From Caldicellulosiruptor morganii (GTDB taxonomy: Bacteria; Bacillota; Thermoanaerobacteria; Caldicellulosiruptorales; Caldicellulosiruptoraceae), in the NCBI RefSeq assembly GCF_026810225.1, contig NZ_CP113865.1, positions 1,322,001 through 1,386,000 on the forward strand: 64,000 nt of DNA, given 5' to 3'. The notes under the pieces are model-generated. The model worked only from the letters and a program-made list of their open reading frames with translations. It was not told the DNA's origin and did no database searches. Both the position numbers and the translations under genes were made by a program. This document shows positions 39,745 through 46,311 of this stretch, piece by piece. Position 1 is the first letter of the stretch, and each line of letters begins with the position of its first letter.

Positions 39745-41541
39745 TTAAGCCTTCTTGGAGATTGCCTTGAATGGACATTTTTCTATACATACTCCGCACT
39801 TAATACACTTTTCTTGGTCAATCTCAAACGGCTTTTTGATCTGTCCGGTTATAGCATTTGCAGGGCAGTTCTTAGCACAGATACCACAGCCTTTGCAAAG
39901 ATCCCTGTCTATTACAATTCTCAAAAGTGCCTTGCATGCACCGGCAGGGCATCTCTTTTCTTTGACATGTGCTTCATATTCATCTCTGAAGTATCTTAAT
40001 GTACTCAAAACTGGATTTGGTGCAGTTTGACCAAGTCCACAAAGTGCACTATCTTTAATAGAATATGCAAGCTCCTCTAACTTTTCAATATCTTCCATAG
40101 TGCCATTGCCACTTGTAATCTTTTGTAAAATCTCAAGCATTCTTCTTGTTCCTATTCTACATGGCGGACATTTCCCACATGACTCATCAACCGTAAATTC
40201 TAAGAAAAATTTTGCTATATCAACCATACAGGTATCTTCATCCATTACAATCATTCCACCCGAGCCCATCATTGTCCCAAGAGCTGTTAGTGAGTCAAAG
40301 TCAATGGGTGTATCCATCAAAGATGCAGGAATGCATCCACCAGATGGTCCACCTGTCTGAACAGCTTTAAACTTTTTGCCACCAGGTATTCCACCACCAA
40401 TGTCTTCAACTATTTCCCTTACAGTTGTTCCCATCGGAACCTCAATAAGCCCTGTATTGTTTACCTTTCCAACAAGTGCAAACACCTTCGTACCTTTGCT
40501 CTTTTCTGTTCCGATTGAAGCAAACCACTCTGGTCCTTTGAGAATTATAACCGGAATGTTTGCATATGTCTCAACATTGTTCAAAAGTGTTGGCTTTCCC
40601 CAGAGTCCCTTTACTGCAGGGAATGGTGGTCTTGGTCTTGGCTCTCCACGATGACCTTCAATTGATGTCATCAAAGCTGTCTCCTCACCGCAAACAAACG
40701 CACCGGCACCAAGTCTTATTTCAATATCAAATTCAAAATCTGTCCCCAGGATATTCTTGCCCAAAAGCCCATATTCTCTTGCCTGGTTTATTGCAATCTC
40801 AAGTCTCTTGACAGCCAATGGGTACTCAGCTCTGACATAAACATAACCCTGTTTTGAACCAATTGCATAACCAGCAATTGCCATAGCTTCAATAACAGAA
40901 TGTGGATCTCCCTCCAAGATACTTCTGTCCATATACGCACCGGGGTCACCCTCGTCAGCGTTGCAGACAACATACTTTACATTACCTGGCGCTTTTGCTG
41001 CAAACTCCCACTTGAGACCTGTTGGGAATCCGCCACCACCTCTTCCTCTCAAACCAGATCTTTTTACCCAGTCAATCACCTGCTCCGGAGTCATCTCTGT
41101 CAGAACCTTTGCTAAAGCTTTGTATCCGTCGTATGCTATATACTCTTCAATGTTTTCTGGATTTATAACACCACAGTTTCTAAGGGCAATTCGCATCTGT
41201 TTTTTGTAAAACTTGACTTCATTTAAAGACTTTATCTGACCCTCTTCAAGTGACTCTTTATATAAAAGCCTCTTTACAATCCTTCCTTTAAGAAGATGCT
41301 CTTCTACAATCTCTTTTACATCAGAATCTGCAACCCTGCTGTAAAATGCTCCTTCTGGATAAACAATAACAATTGGACCTTCTGCACAAAGCCCAAAGCA
41401 TCCTGTACATATTACCTGAACTTCATCTTTCAAGTTGAAACTTTCTATTTCTTTCAAAAATGCATCATAAATCTTATCTGACCCGCCTGAGGTACAACCT
41501 GTCCCACCACATACAAGAACATGTGATCTGTATAATGGCAT
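39745..41541 (-). CDS. hndC: Hydrogenase flavoprotein subunit HndC/HydB (NuoF-like)
   Basis: The 598 residues contain an N-terminal [2Fe-2S] thioredoxin-like domain (CGGTGCTSGG, CTGCFGLCAEGP) and the FMN/NADH domain (GLRGRGGGGFPTGLKWE, GAGAFVCGEETALM). A [4Fe-4S] site (ESCGKCPPCRIGTRRM) and a C-terminal 2[4Fe-4S] ferredoxin domain (DLCKGCGICAKNCP, EKCIKCGVCIEKCP) follow. This is the NAD(P)H and flavin site of the bifurcating hydrogenase. The ATG at 41541 is preferred because AAGGAGG is 10 bases upstream; the ATG at 41550 touches that site. Confidence 0.95.
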   Translation of the reverse strand: MPLYRSHVLVCGGTGCTSGGSDKIYDAFLKEIESFNLKDEVQVICTGCFGLCAEGPIVIVYPEGAFYSRVADSDVKEIVEEHLLKGRIVKRLLYKESLEEGQIKSLNEVKFYKKQMRIALRNCGVINPENIEEYIAYDGYKALAKVLTEMTPEQVIDWVKRSGLRGRGGGGFPTGLKWEFAAKAPGNVKYVVCNADEGDPGAYMDRSILEGDPHSVIEAMAIAGYAIGSKQGYVYVRAEYPLAVKRLEIAINQAREYGLLGKNILGTDFEFDIEIRLGAGAFVCGEETALMTSIEGHRGEPRPRPPFPAVKGLWGKPTLLNNVETYANIPVIILKGPEWFASIGTEKSKGTKVFALVGKVNNTGLIEVPMGTTVREIVEDIGGGIPGGKKFKAVQTGGPSGGCIPASLMDTPIDFDSLTALGTMMGSGGMIVMDEDTCMVDIAKFFLEFTVDESCGKCPPCRIGTRRMLEILQKITSGNGTMEDIEKLEELAYSIKDSALCGLGQTAPNPVLSTLRYFRDEYEAHVKEKRCPAGACKALLRIVIDRDLCKGCGICAKNCPANAITGQIKKPFEIDQEKCIKCGVCIEKCPFKAISKKA

Positions 41542-41559
41542 AATATACATACCTCCTTT

Positions 41560-41949
41560 TTATTTGTTTGCCTCTTTAGCTTCTTCATATCCAATTGTAT
41601 ATTCATATACTGGTTTTCCGTTCACAATATGTTCAGCAACAACTCTTGAAACCTTTTCAGGAGTCATTTTCACATATGTTACCTTCTCTTTGTTTGGTTC
41701 ATAAACCTCTACAATTGGTTCATATTTGCAAAGACCTATGCATCCTGTTTGAACAACCGTTACATTTTGAAGGTTCCTCTTTTGAATTTCCTCTACAAAC
41801 TTTAACATCACAGGTCTTGCACCTGCTGCTATTCCACATGTTGCCATACCAACAACTACTCTTATCCCTTCTCCTTGTTGTTTTCTGAACTCAAGCTCTT
41901 CTAAAGCCTTTTTTCTTATCTGTTCAAGTTCCTGAATAGATTTAATCAT
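41560..41949 (-). CDS. hndB: Hydrogenase [2Fe-2S] subunit HndB
   Basis: This 129-residue thioredoxin-like ferredoxin has cluster cysteines in VGMATCGIAAGARP and VVQTGCIGLCKYEP. The role is electron transfer within HndABCD. The start overlaps the preceding ATPase gene by 8 bases, so both are translated together. Confidence 0.93.
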   Translation of the reverse strand: MIKSIQELEQIRKKALEELEFRKQQGEGIRVVVGMATCGIAAGARPVMLKFVEEIQKRNLQNVTVVQTGCIGLCKYEPIVEVYEPNKEKVTYVKMTPEKVSRVVAEHIVNGKPVYEYTIGYEEAKEANK

Positions 41950-42505
41950 TTATATTTGCACCTCCAAATAAATTTGATAACCCATCCGAAAGCTCCCTTT
42001 TAATAAACTCCAAAACACTTGGCAAATTGAGAGGTACATCTTCCCCAAGAATATCTTTTAATTTTTTTGTATCAAAAGCAAACACTCCTTTGTCAGTTTT
42101 GTGTATATAAACAAAATCTACCTGGGGCGCAGTTGCTATCAGAGTCAAGAGGGTATCAATAATATTCCCAAGTGGTGGTCTGTCAATATGAGAATTTTGC
42201 AGCTCAATTTTTACCTCTGTCCCTTTTCCTGATGAGTCAACAGAAAACTTTCCATTGCAATCTTTTGCAAGCTGTGAGGCAAGTGCTAAACCAAGTCCCA
42301 CTTTTCTTGTCTTCCTTGTGGTATAAAAAGGATCAGTTACCTTAGTTATTACATCCTTTGGTATACCTTTGCCATTGTCCTTAACTGAAATTGAAAATTT
42401 ATCATTGACCAAATCTTCAATAATCTCAATCTTTACAATTGTCGCTCCTGCCTCGATTGAATTTTGCACAAGGTCAAGTATATAAAGTGAAAGTTCATTC
42501 AACAA
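41942..42505 (-). CDS. GHKL ATPase embedded in the hydrogenase operon
   Basis: The 187 residues contain a histidine-kinase-type ATP-binding domain. The N-box is LVQNSIEAGATIVKIEI, the G1 motif VKDNGKGIP and the G2 region KVGLGLALASQLA. A C-terminal 80-residue extension of unknown fold follows. There is no sensor or phospho-acceptor histidine domain, so it may act as a partner-switching kinase or ATPase. It lies between hndA and hndB and overlaps hndB. Homologues occur at the same place in related clostridial operons, but their role is not established. Confidence 0.8.
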   Translation of the reverse strand: MLNELSLYILDLVQNSIEAGATIVKIEIIEDLVNDKFSISVKDNGKGIPKDVITKVTDPFYTTRKTRKVGLGLALASQLAKDCNGKFSVDSSGKGTEVKIELQNSHIDRPPLGNIIDTLLTLIATAPQVDFVYIHKTDKGVFAFDTKKLKDILGEDVPLNLPSVLEFIKRELSDGLSNLFGGANIND

Positions 42506-42547: not shown

Positions 42548-43030
42548 TTAATATCTTGACAAGATATTTTCAATATCTTCGGGCGCCAATTTCCCATAAA
42601 CAGTATTGTCAATTACGACAACCGGTGCAAGCCCACATGCCCCCAAACACCTTGTTGCTTCTATTGAAAATTTACCATCTTCAGTTGTGCCACCAACGTC
42701 TATCTTTAGAAGTTCTTTTAGCTTATCTAAAATTTTGTCTGCACCTTTAACATAGCATGCAGTTCCCATGCATACACTAATCTTGTGGTCACCGGTTGGT
42801 TTTAATGTAAATCTGGTATAAAATGTTGCAACACCATAAACCTCTGCCATTGGAATGTTCAAACCTTCTGCAATTCTCTTTTGCACTTCATATGGTAAAT
42901 ATCCAAACAGCTCCTGTGCTTCGTGTAAAACTGGAATCAAAGCACCTTTTCTTGATTTGTTTCTTTCAATAATCTCATCAAGTTTTTTAAAATTTTCCTC
43001 AGTAAGGTTTTTGCCCTGGCAACAAGACAT
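42548..43030 (-). CDS. hndA: Hydrogenase NuoE-like subunit HndA
   Basis: This 160-residue [2Fe-2S] subunit has four cysteines in VCMGTACYVKGA and EATRCLGACGLAPVV, after the helical YLPYEVQKRIAEGLNIPMAEVYGVATFYTRF region typical of the NuoE/HndA family. It starts the hnd operon; the upstream 109 bases hold a TATAAT box. Confidence 0.93.
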   Translation of the reverse strand: MSCCQGKNLTEENFKKLDEIIERNKSRKGALIPVLHEAQELFGYLPYEVQKRIAEGLNIPMAEVYGVATFYTRFTLKPTGDHKISVCMGTACYVKGADKILDKLKELLKIDVGGTTEDGKFSIEATRCLGACGLAPVVVIDNTVYGKLAPEDIENILSRY

Positions 43031-43073
43031 TAATTTGCATCCCCCTTCTATTGTTAGAAGTTTAACATATTCA

Positions 43074-43139: not shown

Positions 43140-43835
43140 TTATTTGAAGAATATTGTATACAGTATATCACTTTCAATAAAAAACTCTCTTTCGTTAATT
43201 TCCCACAAATGATGTGCATCTGAAGAATGCAAAAAGATGCAGTTATTACATTTGGGTAAAAACTTCAAAAATTCGAATTCGTTGATTTTGGAAACTTCAA
43301 AAACAAAAACATCTTTCAGTTCTTCCGGCAATAGCCCCAGTCTCCCAATTATTCCGTAGGACTGTCTGTTGATATGGGCCGGCACAAAAACGGTGTTGTA
43401 AAACTGTGAAATCTCATAAACTTGAGATATGCTCAAATTTAAGGGCTGAAGCAACAGTTTTTTGTAATTTCCAACAACATTATCCTCACTGTCAACCAGC
43501 AATTGATTTCCATATATATCCTCTCTGAGAGCCATATCTGACAGGTTTTCTTCTATAATCTTCTGAAACTCTTCTACTACTGAGAAGTCTTTGAAATACA
43601 AAAGAACATGAATCTCTTCACATGTTTCTATCTCAACACCTGGAATAAATAAAATATCAAGACGTTTTGCAACCTTCAAGAACTCCTTCAAATTTAATGT
43701 AGAATTGTGATCTGTTACAGAAATCACATCCAGTTTCTTTATCTTTGCCATATTTATTATATTGTTCGGTGTCATGTCGTTGTCAGCACACGGCGAAAGA
43801 GCAGAGTGAATGTGCAGGTCATAGTAGAGTTTCAT
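43140..43835 (-). CDS. PHP-domain phosphoesterase
   Basis: The 231 residues include the PHP metal motifs YDLHIHSALSPCADNDMTP, ISVTDHNS and FIPGVEIETCEEIHVL and the late LHSSDAHHL. Family members hydrolyse phosphate esters such as histidinol phosphate or 3',5'-nucleotides. The ATG at 43835 has GGAAGG 6 bases upstream, inside the end of the DRTGG gene that it overlaps. This coupling puts it in the sensor module, so a small phosphorylated signal could be its substrate, which is inference. Confidence 0.8.
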   Translation of the reverse strand: MKLYYDLHIHSALSPCADNDMTPNNIINMAKIKKLDVISVTDHNSTLNLKEFLKVAKRLDILFIPGVEIETCEEIHVLLYFKDFSVVEEFQKIIEENLSDMALREDIYGNQLLVDSEDNVVGNYKKLLLQPLNLSISQVYEISQFYNTVFVPAHINRQSYGIIGRLGLLPEELKDVFVFEVSKINEFEFLKFLPKCNNCIFLHSSDAHHLWEINEREFFIESDILYTIFFK

Positions 43836-44169
43836 TTCGACCTTCCTTTTCTTGAAGAATGAGTAGTTTTGCTGTCTCAAAATGAGACAGCTCGGTTGTA
43901 AAAACAGGAATGCTTTCCTGTTTGGATTTATTAAGCATACTGGTATCCGGCTTTACACCTTCTGTCAATATAATAGCCTTCACGTCCCTCAAAGTGGCAA
44001 TTGCAATTACATTTACATTGTTTTGAATGGTAATCCAGATACTATTGTCCTTGATATGCGAGATTGCAAAACTCAAAATATCTCCAATGTATACATTTTC
44101 ATATATATCATCCTTGACAACATCATTGACAAGATTGAAATATTTTTTAAGGTGTGAAACTCTTGGCAT
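43819..44169 (-). CDS. DRTGG-domain protein (second copy)
   Basis: This 116-residue single-domain DRTGG protein contains YIGDILSFAISHIKDNSIWITIQNNVNVIAIATLRDVKAIILTEGVKPD. The fold occurs in phosphotransacetylases and CBS-linked sensors and probably binds a nucleotide or other ligand. It starts directly after the sensory hydrogenase stop and overlaps the PHP gene. A paralogue lies at 45961-46311, so the hydrogenase gene is bracketed by two of them. Confidence 0.8.
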   Translation of the reverse strand: MPRVSHLKKYFNLVNDVVKDDIYENVYIGDILSFAISHIKDNSIWITIQNNVNVIAIATLRDVKAIILTEGVKPDTSMLNKSKQESIPVFTTELSHFETAKLLILQEKEGRNETLL

Positions 44170-45516
44170 TTAACCTTCATCCCTTTCAAGTGATGGTGGC
44201 AGTTTATTAGAAAGCTCTACCATTTTATTTGCAAGCTCTTTGATATTTTCACGCAAAATAAATATACAATCTGTATCGTTTGCCAGACCTCTGACTATGT
44301 CCTCCGCCAGGGTTTTACATGTTGGAGAACCACATGCACCACAGTCCAGTCCAGGTAAAATCTTTAGTATTTCATTTACCCTCTCATACTTTTTCATGGC
44401 CTCTTCAATATCAGAGTCAAGCTCCAATACTGGATTTGCTTCCAGCTCTCTTGTGAATAGCAGGTCTTCAATAGTTACATCAAGGCTATTTATAAGTTGA
44501 TGAGTACTCTCTTCAAATGTTCCTGCACTGTCGGCAAGTTTGGAAGACCACTTTTTAATTCTATTCTTGGCAACATACGGATTTTCTACGGTAAGCGGAC
44601 CACCCACACAACCGCCGCTGCATGCAAGCCCTTCAAAATAAACAATATTGCTCAGCCTTCCATTTTCAATCTCTTCTAAAACCTTTATCACATTATGAAT
44701 TCCATCTACATTTACATATTCATCTATTCCAAGGGCTAAGCTCTCTCCTCCAGAGGCTGCCCAGCCAATACCTTTTCCAGATGCAATAGAAAGAGGCTTT
44801 ACATCTTTTATACTTTTCAATTTACTTCTAACAAGCCCGTAAATGTCTTTGATAGCTATTACTCCATCCACGTATGACCTCTCAAACCCAAGAGGCAGTT
44901 TCACGTAAGTCATCTTTGCCGCACACGGTGAAATAAAAAATGCACCTATTTTATTTATATCAATGCCTTTTTGCTTATTTATCTTCTTTTTTGCAAGATA
45001 TGCAGCCATTTCCATTGGAGAAGCAAGAGGAAGTATATTGTCAATCAAATCAGGAAACTTTGTCTGAATAAGCCTCACTACTGCAGGGCATGCAGAGGAA
45101 ATTACAGGTTTTTTATCTTTATGGTGTAGAATAAAATGCTTTGTAAACTCTGTGACAATCTCGGCTGCTTTTGCAACCTCAAATATATCGTCAAATCCTA
45201 TTTCTAATAAAGCTTGTAAAAGTTTATTAATGTCGTCTGTCTCAAACTGGGCATAAAACGAAGGAGCTGGCAATGCAACTTTGTATTCATATTTTTTTAT
45301 ATCATCCAGACTATTTGTAACAGCATATTTTGCATGATACGGACATGTCCGTATACACTCACCACAGTCAATACATCTCCTGTCAATAATTCTTGCCTTT
45401 GAATTTCTTACCCTTATCGCTTCTGTGGGACATTTTTTAATACAATTTGTGCACCCTCTGCACTTTTCTCTGTCAAGCATTATTGAATGAAGATTAAAAG
45501 GCATCTCTTTTTTCAC
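44170..45516 (-). CDS. Sensory-type [FeFe] hydrogenase (HsfB/HydS-like)
   Basis: The 448 residues include an N-terminal 2[4Fe-4S] ferredoxin domain (CRGCTNCIKKCP, CIDCGECIRTCP) and an H-cluster domain with C143 (SSACPAVV), C198 (SPCAAKM) and C299/C303 (LACSGGCVGG). A C-terminal [4Fe-4S] domain (C392, C395, C400, C417) follows. Alanine replaces the proton-transfer cysteine of catalytic enzymes (position 142), a mark of sensory hydrogenases such as HydS. It lies among two DRTGG genes, an RsbW-like ATPase and a PHP gene, and probably reports H2 or redox state rather than making H2. The start may be the GTG at 45516 or the ATG at 45504. Confidence 0.85.
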   Translation of the reverse strand: MKKEMPFNLHSIMLDREKCRGCTNCIKKCPTEAIRVRNSKARIIDRRCIDCGECIRTCPYHAKYAVTNSLDDIKKYEYKVALPAPSFYAQFETDDINKLLQALLEIGFDDIFEVAKAAEIVTEFTKHFILHHKDKKPVISSACPAVVRLIQTKFPDLIDNILPLASPMEMAAYLAKKKINKQKGIDINKIGAFFISPCAAKMTYVKLPLGFERSYVDGVIAIKDIYGLVRSKLKSIKDVKPLSIASGKGIGWAASGGESLALGIDEYVNVDGIHNVIKVLEEIENGRLSNIVYFEGLACSGGCVGGPLTVENPYVAKNRIKKWSSKLADSAGTFEESTHQLINSLDVTIEDLLFTRELEANPVLELDSDIEEAMKKYERVNEILKILPGLDCGACGSPTCKTLAEDIVRGLANDTDCIFILRENIKELANKMVELSNKLPPSLERDEG

Positions 45517-45537
45517 TTCCTCAAAATAAATGAATAC

Positions 45538-45957
45538 TTATTTGTTATACACCACCATATAAACCCGTGTACCGCTTCCCTTTTGTGATTCTATTTCAAA
45601 ATGGTCAGAATACTTTTTCATGTTAGGAAGTCCCATTCCTGCACCAAATCCCAAGTTTCTTATTTCTTCAGGTGCAGTAGAATATCCTTCCATCATCGCA
45701 AGTTCAATATCTTCAATTCCTGGTCCTCTGTCTTCGGCGATTATTTCAATTTTGTCCTTTGAGATTATCGCTTTTAAAACTCCACCAACAGAATGTATTA
45801 CAATATTCATTTCTGCCTCGTATGAAACAATAGCAACCTTCTTCAAAATCTCAGGTTTTACACCAAGTTTTTTTAAAGTCTCCTTAATCTTACTTGAAGT
45901 TTCACCTGCTAATACAAAATCTCCGGCTTTGATGTCAAATTCCATAGTAAGCAGCAT
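45538..45957 (-). CDS. RsbW-like ATP-binding protein (anti-sigma/serine kinase type)
   Basis: The 139 residues form a GHKL ATP-binding domain with the N-box EAEMNIVIHS, G1 EDRGPGIED and G2 GFGAGMGLPNMKKYSD. This pattern is that of RsbW/SpoIIAB-type serine kinases that bind sigma factors or antagonists. No sigma factor or anti-anti-sigma gene is next to it. It lies between the first DRTGG gene and the sensory hydrogenase, an order seen in other Clostridia. The start could be the ATG at 45957 or 45945. Confidence 0.8.
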   Translation of the reverse strand: MLLTMEFDIKAGDFVLAGETSSKIKETLKKLGVKPEILKKVAIVSYEAEMNIVIHSVGGVLKAIISKDKIEIIAEDRGPGIEDIELAMMEGYSTAPEEIRNLGFGAGMGLPNMKKYSDHFEIESQKGSGTRVYMVVYNK

Positions 45958-45960
45958 ACC

Positions 45961-46311
45961 TTAGCACCCTTCTTTACCAAGTCCATTTTCATACAATATT
46001 CCGCATGCTTGAAACATCGGATAATCAGTCGAATAGAGGGCAATACATTTCTCTTTTGCCAGCCTCAACATTTCATCCGATGGCTGTTTCCCGCGAACAA
46101 TTATGATTGCCTTTATATCCATCATTTCTGCTGTACGAATAACCTGAGGATTGACAAGACCAGTAAGGAGTATCACCTTTTCCTTTACAAATGCCAGGAC
46201 ATCGCTCATCAGGTCCGAGCCACAGGCATTCAAAAACTCCTCTTCTGAAAGCCCCTGAGGTTCAAAAAAAATTTTGCATTTGAGCAGTTCTTTTATTGTA
46301 GATAATTTCAT
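45961..46311 (-). CDS. DRTGG-domain protein (first copy)
   Basis: This 116-residue protein has the DRTGG fold (CGSDLMSDVLAFVKEKVILLTGLVNPQVIRTAEMMDIKAIIIVRGKQPSDEM). It is similar in length and pattern to the copy at 43819-44169. It follows tlyA by 33 bases and precedes the RsbW-like ATPase by 3 bases, so the sensor module may be transcribed from the dxs side. Confidence 0.8.
   Translation of the reverse strand: MKLSTIKELLKCKIFFEPQGLSEEEFLNACGSDLMSDVLAFVKEKVILLTGLVNPQVIRTAEMMDIKAIIIVRGKQPSDEMLRLAKEKCIALYSTDYPMFQACGILYENGLGKEGC

Follow-up and report, generated by a model that had tools for sequence, protein, structure and literature searches.

Within a 64,000-nucleotide stretch of Caldicellulosiruptor morganii DNA (contig NZ_CP113865.1, positions 1,322,001 to 1,386,000; hereafter the window), five genes on the minus strand lie directly ahead of hyd, the operon for a bifurcating [FeFe] hydrogenase. 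In reading order, their products are D1, a stand-alone DRTGG-domain protein of 116 amino acids (45961..46311), identified from its open reading frame, the profiles of its relatives and its fold; R, a GHKL ATPase of 139 residues resembling RsbW and SpoIIAB (45538..45957; Pfam HATPase_c, motifs and fold); HydS, a putative sensory [FeFe] hydrogenase of group D (M2e), with 448 residues and a GTG start (44170..45516; Pfam and residues); D2, a second DRTGG-domain protein, also of 116 residues (43819..44169; Pfam DRTGG); and PHP, a PHP-domain phosphoesterase of 231 residues with an ATG start (43140..43835; Pfam PHP, motif residues and model), for which a TTG start at 43880 is also possible. D1 and R are separated by 3 bp and R and HydS by 21 bp, HydS and D2 abut, and D2 and PHP overlap by 17 bp. 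An earlier note on this DNA had described five tightly packed genes beside a bifurcating hydrogenase, and this holds: all the open reading frames are present at 43140-46311, and the names have Pfam support (E-values of 4e-8 for HATPase_c in R, 1.7e-38 for Fe_hyd_lg_C in HydS, 6.9e-9 for DRTGG in D2 and 4.6e-10 for PHP).

A gap of 109 bp follows PHP; 38 bp ahead of hydC it contains, by motif match, a Rex operator (ATGTTAAACTTCTAACAA, 43051..43068, minus strand; agreement at 12 of the 14 specified bases). The hyd operon then continues on the same strand. Its first gene encodes HydC, a NuoE-like 2Fe-2S protein of thioredoxin fold (42548..43030; open reading frame and Pfam). After it come HATP2, an orphan histidine-kinase-type ATPase domain with no phospho-acceptor helix (41942..42505; Pfam), whose place in the cassette the earlier note had missed; an HndB-like, thioredoxin-like [2Fe-2S] protein (41560..41949; Pfam); HydB, the NuoF-like, NADH-binding subunit (39745..41550; open reading frame and NCBIfam); and HydA, an NADH-dependent [FeFe] hydrogenase matching the group A6 model NF040763 (37988..39727; open reading frame and NCBIfam). 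The counterparts in Caldicellulosiruptor bescii are the group D hydrogenase Athe_1292 and the hyd operon Athe_1295-1299 (PMC3561251, PMC6391272). Inspection of open reading frames and Pfam matches in R, HATP2 and the rest of the operon revealed neither the DHp nor the receiver domain of a two-component system.

An alignment of 13 HydS proteins served as the query for a scan of GTDB genomes. This yielded 80 loci, in Bacillota, Coprothermobacter, Spirochaetes and one Sumerlaeota metagenome-assembled genome; addition of loci of the same class brought the HydS set to 111, of which 102 have enough flanking sequence on both sides. D1, R, HydS, D2 and PHP occur in the same order in 93 of these 102. 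R is absent from one locus only, and the exceptions to the order are mostly loci with R and HydS alone (L057, L068, L089, L095). Among 398 genomes of the phylum, HydS is present in 157, D1 in 169 and both in 153, leaving four with HydS only and 16 with D1 only (Fisher p = 3e-85, a value that is indicative, the genomes being related). The hyd operon lies downstream in many loci and is divergent in six (L085, L098, L104, L108, L114, L117). Because hyd is variously placed, or not nearby, we regard the module as a unit of its own.

Three neighbouring pairs of these genes are also found fused. D1 and R form a single protein of about 270 residues at eleven loci (L138, L141, L143, L145, L147, L198, L199, L200, L201, L202 and L206, with L138 and L206 belonging to one and the same genome); R and HydS form one of 601 residues at L196; and HydS and D2 form one of 563-570 residues at L146 and L204. 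Of the in-silico evidence, these fusions point most strongly to the products acting in one complex. As judged from them, R and D2 are likely direct partners of HydS, and D1 of R.

In genomes that have D1 and no HydS, the cassette reads D1, an R fused to a pair of CBS domains, D2, PHP and HATP2 (L178, L180, L182), and L193 repeats this layout, as an additional copy in a genome that also carries HydS. HATP2 directly follows PHP in these HydS-less cassettes, and we therefore count it as a cassette member. The CBS form can also precede the same hydrogenase genes: L197 reads rex, D1, CBS-R, D2, PHP, HATP2, hydC, HndB, hydB, hydA. At L179 and L181, in genomes without HydS, D1 and CBS-R are followed by an HndB-like gene and rnfCDGEAB (rnf subunits checked by Pfam in L179 only). 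There is, in addition, a split-locus family, in which rex, D1, D2, PHP and HATP2 stand apart from HydS and R (L187, L189, L190; L139). HydS looks, from these layouts, like an interchangeable input, one of two, the other being the CBS pair. Some HydS loci carry CBS domains on R as well (L195, L191), where R would be a point of integration. The unit of five genes put forward earlier keeps its conserved order; it has to be extended by HATP2, and its HydS is replaceable by CBS domains.

Several single arrangements were recorded among the same loci. At L068 (9053-11302), a CheW gene stands directly upstream of R and HydS, in the place of D1; seen once, this suggests that R and HydS can feed chemotaxis proteins in one lineage. 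At L057 (5913-11296), also a single case, R and HydS are immediately preceded by genes for a 910-residue HATPase protein of histidine-kinase size and for an OmpR-type response regulator, and a second hydrogenase-like protein is encoded downstream. ECF transporter genes lie beside R and HydS at L089 and were seen there once. HydS appears split or partly lost, its neighbours intact, at L183:7597-8954, L185:6161-7542, L186:7658-8127 and L198:348-1696; these could be sequencing frameshifts or genuine decay. Genes for SPOR-domain proteins occur near the upstream end of the cassette at L191:3188-3952 and L179:6523-7041, with no apparent functional link.

R has a GHKL fold; its N, G1 and G2 boxes are present, as is the catalytic Glu. 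Its motifs YEAExN, DxGPGI and GFGAGMGLPN are nearly invariant and are intact in the window; Glu47 and Asn51 are nearly invariant as well. The best PDB match is SpoIIAB, both by sequence (3e-11) and by fold (TM-score 0.80 of target), with weaker fold matches to the PDHK and BCKDK kinases; R scores below the NCBIfam cut-offs for SpoIIAB (59 of 135 bits) and RsbW (20 of 145 bits). D1 of the window falls short of the Pfam DRTGG cut-off (23.2 versus 25.2 bits). D1 proteins of relatives exceed it, and the D1 portion of a naturally fused D1-R protein matches 2ioj (TM-score 0.78 by target) and 3l31 in its modelled fold; D1 is confirmed as a predicted DRTGG domain by these two lines together. Conserved motifs are ACGxDLMSDVLA, RTAE, RGK and CGxLY in D1, and DLLS, WxT, N and A in D2. 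In the shared DLxS motif, Ser36 of D1 and Ser33 of D2 are 100% conserved, and Thr50 of D1 and Thr47 of D2 are invariant.

The resemblance of R to SpoIIAB favours phosphorylation. In its full form this would be a partner switch, which we consider possible and on balance doubtful: R would be a serine kinase that phosphorylates D1 and/or D2 at Ser36 and Ser33, HydS would gate R, and PHP would dephosphorylate, so that the logic of SpoIIAB, SpoIIAA and SpoIIE would be kept with a DRTGG protein for the STAS protein and PHP for the PP2C phosphatase. The kinship of R with SpoIIAB, its preserved nucleotide motifs, the two fully conserved serines and the fusion of D1 with R in several genomes all argue for such a switch, as does the hfs operon, a group C analogue that encodes the serine phosphatase-like HfsC (PMC11837493). 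However, the invariant residues may instead be needed to bind a ligand or to fold, DRTGG is known as a regulatory domain linked to nucleotides, and the model of PHP does not resemble protein phosphatases. Moreover, the operon lacks a STAS or sigma partner; neither the module nor the standard loci yielded a sigma factor or STAS antagonist.

All motif residues of PHP are invariant (H8, H10, D42, H43, E68, H154, D206, H208). Its predicted structure (predicted local distance difference test score, 92.6) is best matched by EndoQ, 3o0f, RNase AM, Pol III PHP domains and the AMP-bound 2yb1, and far more weakly by histidinol phosphatases. On this model, PHP would be a metal-dependent phosphoesterase nearest to those acting on nucleic acids and nucleotides. 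An adenylate component is favoured because of the CBS domains and this nucleotide-type PHP. An outright second-messenger scheme seems rather unlikely to us. In it, D1 and D2 would bind an adenine nucleotide, R or HATP2 would respond using ATP, PHP would destroy the nucleotide and HydS would modulate the whole. It draws on CBS-PPase, an enzyme that has CBS-DRTGG-CBS as its regulatory insert and is responsive to AMP, ADP, ATP and diadenosine polyphosphates (PMC10742508), on the CBS pairs borne by R in many genomes, and on the structural neighbours of PHP; but the nucleotides of CBS-PPase bind the CBS domains, no DRTGG protein standing alone is known to bind a ligand, and the operon has no synthase.

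A link to transcription comes from rex. A comparison of coordinates puts rex immediately upstream of D1, in the same orientation and no more than about 310 bp away, in at least 20 genomes from eight families, a lower bound (G073, G114, G124, G149, G173, G182, G188, G208, G213, G232, G256, G279, G284, G302, G325, G346, G366, G391, G404, G409). For genomes of about 2,500 genes, the two would be expected side by side by chance in well under one of the 169 that have D1. At L206, rex, the D1-R fusion, HydS, D2, PHP, hydC, HATP2, HndB, hydB and hydA form a single run. The 18-bp Rex-like palindrome of the window is conserved within the genus, and Rex-like sites are found in the gap between PHP and hydC at P <= 0.01, against shuffles of each locus's own gap, in 39 of 98 loci, many of which are related. 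In C. bescii, Rex binds the orthologous hyd promoter, with an operator 39 bp upstream of Athe_1295 (PMC6391272), and in Clostridium thermocellum the hyd operon as a Rex target is supported by DNA affinity purification sequencing (PMC8457756). Upstream of D1 in the window we found no Rex box (best 9 of 14, P 0.78), and 9 of 98 loci have one; we make no claim that Rex controls the module itself in the window. Rex is the transcription factor most strongly linked to the cassette, whose output probably concerns the hydrogenase and Rnf. The earlier note had remarked on the lack of a classic output; this is true within the window, and has to be set against the rex genes upstream of D1 elsewhere and the Rex operator ahead of hydC.

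The genomic company of the cassette would also fit post-translational control exerted directly on the enzymes, a scheme to which we give no great weight. R and HATP2, aided by D1, D2 and PHP, would act on the HydABC or Rnf complex and tune it to H2 and adenylate state, in the manner of the GHKL-type pyruvate dehydrogenase kinases. The cassette does accompany hyd and rnf across genomes, HATP2 does sit within hyd between hydC and the HndB-like gene, and the weaker PDHK and BCKDK matches of R point the same way; on the other side, some complete modules lack a hyd operon in their vicinity, and the linkage to rex indicates transcription.

HydS itself has two N-terminal Fer4 domains, an Fe_hyd_lg_C H-domain and an FeS domain (PF04060), as assigned by Pfam. 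The C-terminal cluster, Cx2Cx4Cx16C, is formed by Cys392, 395, 400 and 417. We considered HydS as a group C sensory hydrogenase and rejected this assignment: the fused PAS domain that follows the C-terminal cluster in that group was not found by Pfam, and the protein ends about 30 residues past the last cluster cysteine. The cysteines of the H-cluster and the Fer4 clusters are invariant in the aligned HydS proteins. As the earlier note had it, the proton-transfer cysteine (Cys299 in CpI) is replaced by alanine: the position is A142, and Ala is conserved in 94% of 110 HydS.

We compared HydS with published residues of the group D enzyme TamHydS of Thermoanaerobacter mathranii (PMC10407848, PMC13104023), mapping the window protein through the numbering of HydS from Thermoanaerobacter wiegelii, which has E252, E289, S249, D265, C20, C379, D378, D403, C404, R30, R32, E392 and D393 at the published positions. 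The alternative proton path is present, E258, E295, S255 and D271 of the window corresponding to TamHydS E252, E289, S249 and D265, and C392, D391, D416 and C417 occupy places matching TamHydS-numbered residues. Every group D residue tested is kept, and HydS of all eleven congeners is 79-93% identical to that of the window. TamHydS converts H+ and H2 at low rates (PMC8163306), an H2-induced structural change has been published for it, and its C-terminal Fe-S cluster is not reduced by H2 (PMC13104023). Redox sensing by the H-cluster and Fe-S clusters, as first proposed for this locus, is thus retained for HydS as sensor and disfavoured for the C-terminal cluster. We think it improbable that HydS is simply a catalytic hydrogenase of the ordinary kind, or serves HydABC as an electron-transfer accessory, with unrelated regulators or maturation helpers for neighbours, since the activity of TamHydS that speaks for it is slow, the standard proton path is lost in group D, the neighbours are of signalling type, in strict order and fused, and CBS domains replace HydS elsewhere. 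At the level of sequence, a sensory module is well supported by the conserved order, the natural fusions and the group D residues.

Two further observations concern relatives of HydS. In T. wiegelii (L039), HydS is flanked by R and by D2, which has a DRTGG domain and no HTH match; judged from this congener of T. mathranii, a misannotated D2 probably underlies the 'AraC family regulator' label given to a neighbour of TamHydS. The T. wiegelii D2 (L039:11306-11641) also matches, below threshold, the Pfam model of the PucR N-terminal domain (25.2 of 33.5 bits); this may account for the naming of D2 as a transcriptional regulator elsewhere. The source genome also encodes a second sensory-type [FeFe] hydrogenase, of 630 residues (L002:184-2076, minus strand, at about 2135257). 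Its domains are Fe_hyd_lg_C and a methyl-accepting chemotaxis signalling domain, with an FeS match below threshold. It adjoins a transposase-like open reading frame and, by its domains, looks like a chemotaxis-linked H2 sensor.

Overall, we think it reasonably likely that the five genes, together with HATP2, make up a modular cassette for redox/energy signalling in anaerobic bacteria, here in its hydrogen-input form, with an output likely linked to Rex. HydS would be the sensor, in which H2 and electrons would set the state of the H-cluster and the N-terminal clusters and so cause a conformational change. This would be passed by contact to R, as the fusions and constant pairing suggest. R and the two DRTGG proteins would form an ATP-dependent switch, a step to which folds and fusions point and whose chemistry is conjectural, and PHP and HATP2 would reset or tune it. 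The output would be control of enzymes that dispose of ferredoxin and NADH, the bifurcating hydrogenase here and Rnf elsewhere, most probably through or alongside the NADH-sensing repressor Rex at the operator between PHP and hydC. For C. morganii, we infer the contact of HydS with R, the target of R, the substrate of PHP and the route to Rex or the hydrogenase.

Several points weigh against this interpretation. The five genes occur without a nearby hyd operon at L079, L081 and L101. In the source genome (2.48 Mb), rex lies about 0.6 Mb from the window; its adjacency to D1 is a minority arrangement and may reflect co-regulation instead of a signalling step. Deletion of rex in C. bescii slightly lowered hyd transcripts and did not raise them (PMC6391272). 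When a naturally fused D1-R protein was modelled with AlphaFold, both domains came out folded but no docked pose was supported (predicted TM-score 0.47, from 9 sequences only), and for the operon we found no interaction, binding or expression datum.

A broader proposition, which we judge about evenly balanced, is that the unnamed cassette (DRTGG, GHKL ATPase, exchangeable HydS or CBS pair, DRTGG, PHP and HATPase) is a general redox/adenylate control of anaerobes, acting with Rex on bifurcating hydrogenase and Rnf and using group D hydrogenases as its H2 input. Group D HydS as a putative sensor upstream of a bifurcating hydrogenase, with a kinase-like gene between, has been published (PMC3561251, PMC8163306), as has the control of hyd by Rex (PMC6391272), so the earlier view that the signalling logic is undescribed applies to the cassette and not to HydS as sensor. 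In the literature searched, from which most subscription journals fall outside and where an earlier description is possible, we found neither the conserved five- or six-gene cassette, its fusions, the CBS exchange and the rex and rnf linkage, nor anything relevant that joins DRTGG with hydrogenase. How group D sensory hydrogenases transmit their signal is a stated open question (PMC8163306, PMC13104023). The fusions give likely direct partners, the CBS swap marks the input part, and the rex and rnf linkage indicates a probable output; the 'sensory' label becomes a list of partners testable in genetically tractable bacteria (C. bescii, Thermoanaerobacterium, C. thermocellum) of importance for making hydrogen and ethanol. 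If the broader proposition is correct, it would provide a route of H2 sensing with neither a PAS domain nor a two-component phosphorelay.

Finally, the cassette can be set beside known systems. Like HydS, the group C hydrogenases (HydS of Thermotoga maritima and Ruminococcus albus, HfsB of Thermoanaerobacterium) are putative H2 sensors near other hydrogenases, and hfs also includes a signalling-type phosphatase; group C proteins have a fused PAS domain, whereas HydS of the window does not, and no set of DRTGG, CBS-R or PHP has been described for hfs. Deletion of hfsB alters fermentation (PMC5707799), a group C result that we do not use as evidence for HydS. Rex, the NADH/NAD+-sensing repressor, has its C. 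bescii hyd operator at a distance matching that in the window (PMC6391272); linkage of the rex gene with a D1-R cassette did not appear in the literature searched. R shares fold and nucleotide motifs with the partner-switching kinases SpoIIAB and RsbW, but a sigma factor, a STAS antagonist and a PP2C phosphatase are all missing from the cassette. The CBS-PPase insert and SpxR (HTH-DRTGG-CBS-HotDog) likewise combine DRTGG with CBS in metabolic or adenylate sensors of Firmicutes (PMC10742508, PMC9888711), whereas in the cassette each DRTGG domain is a protein of its own and any CBS domains are joined to R. TamHydS shares with HydS the domain layout, the Ala in place of Cys299, the alternative proton-path residues, the C-terminal cluster and a position beside a bifurcating hydrogenase.

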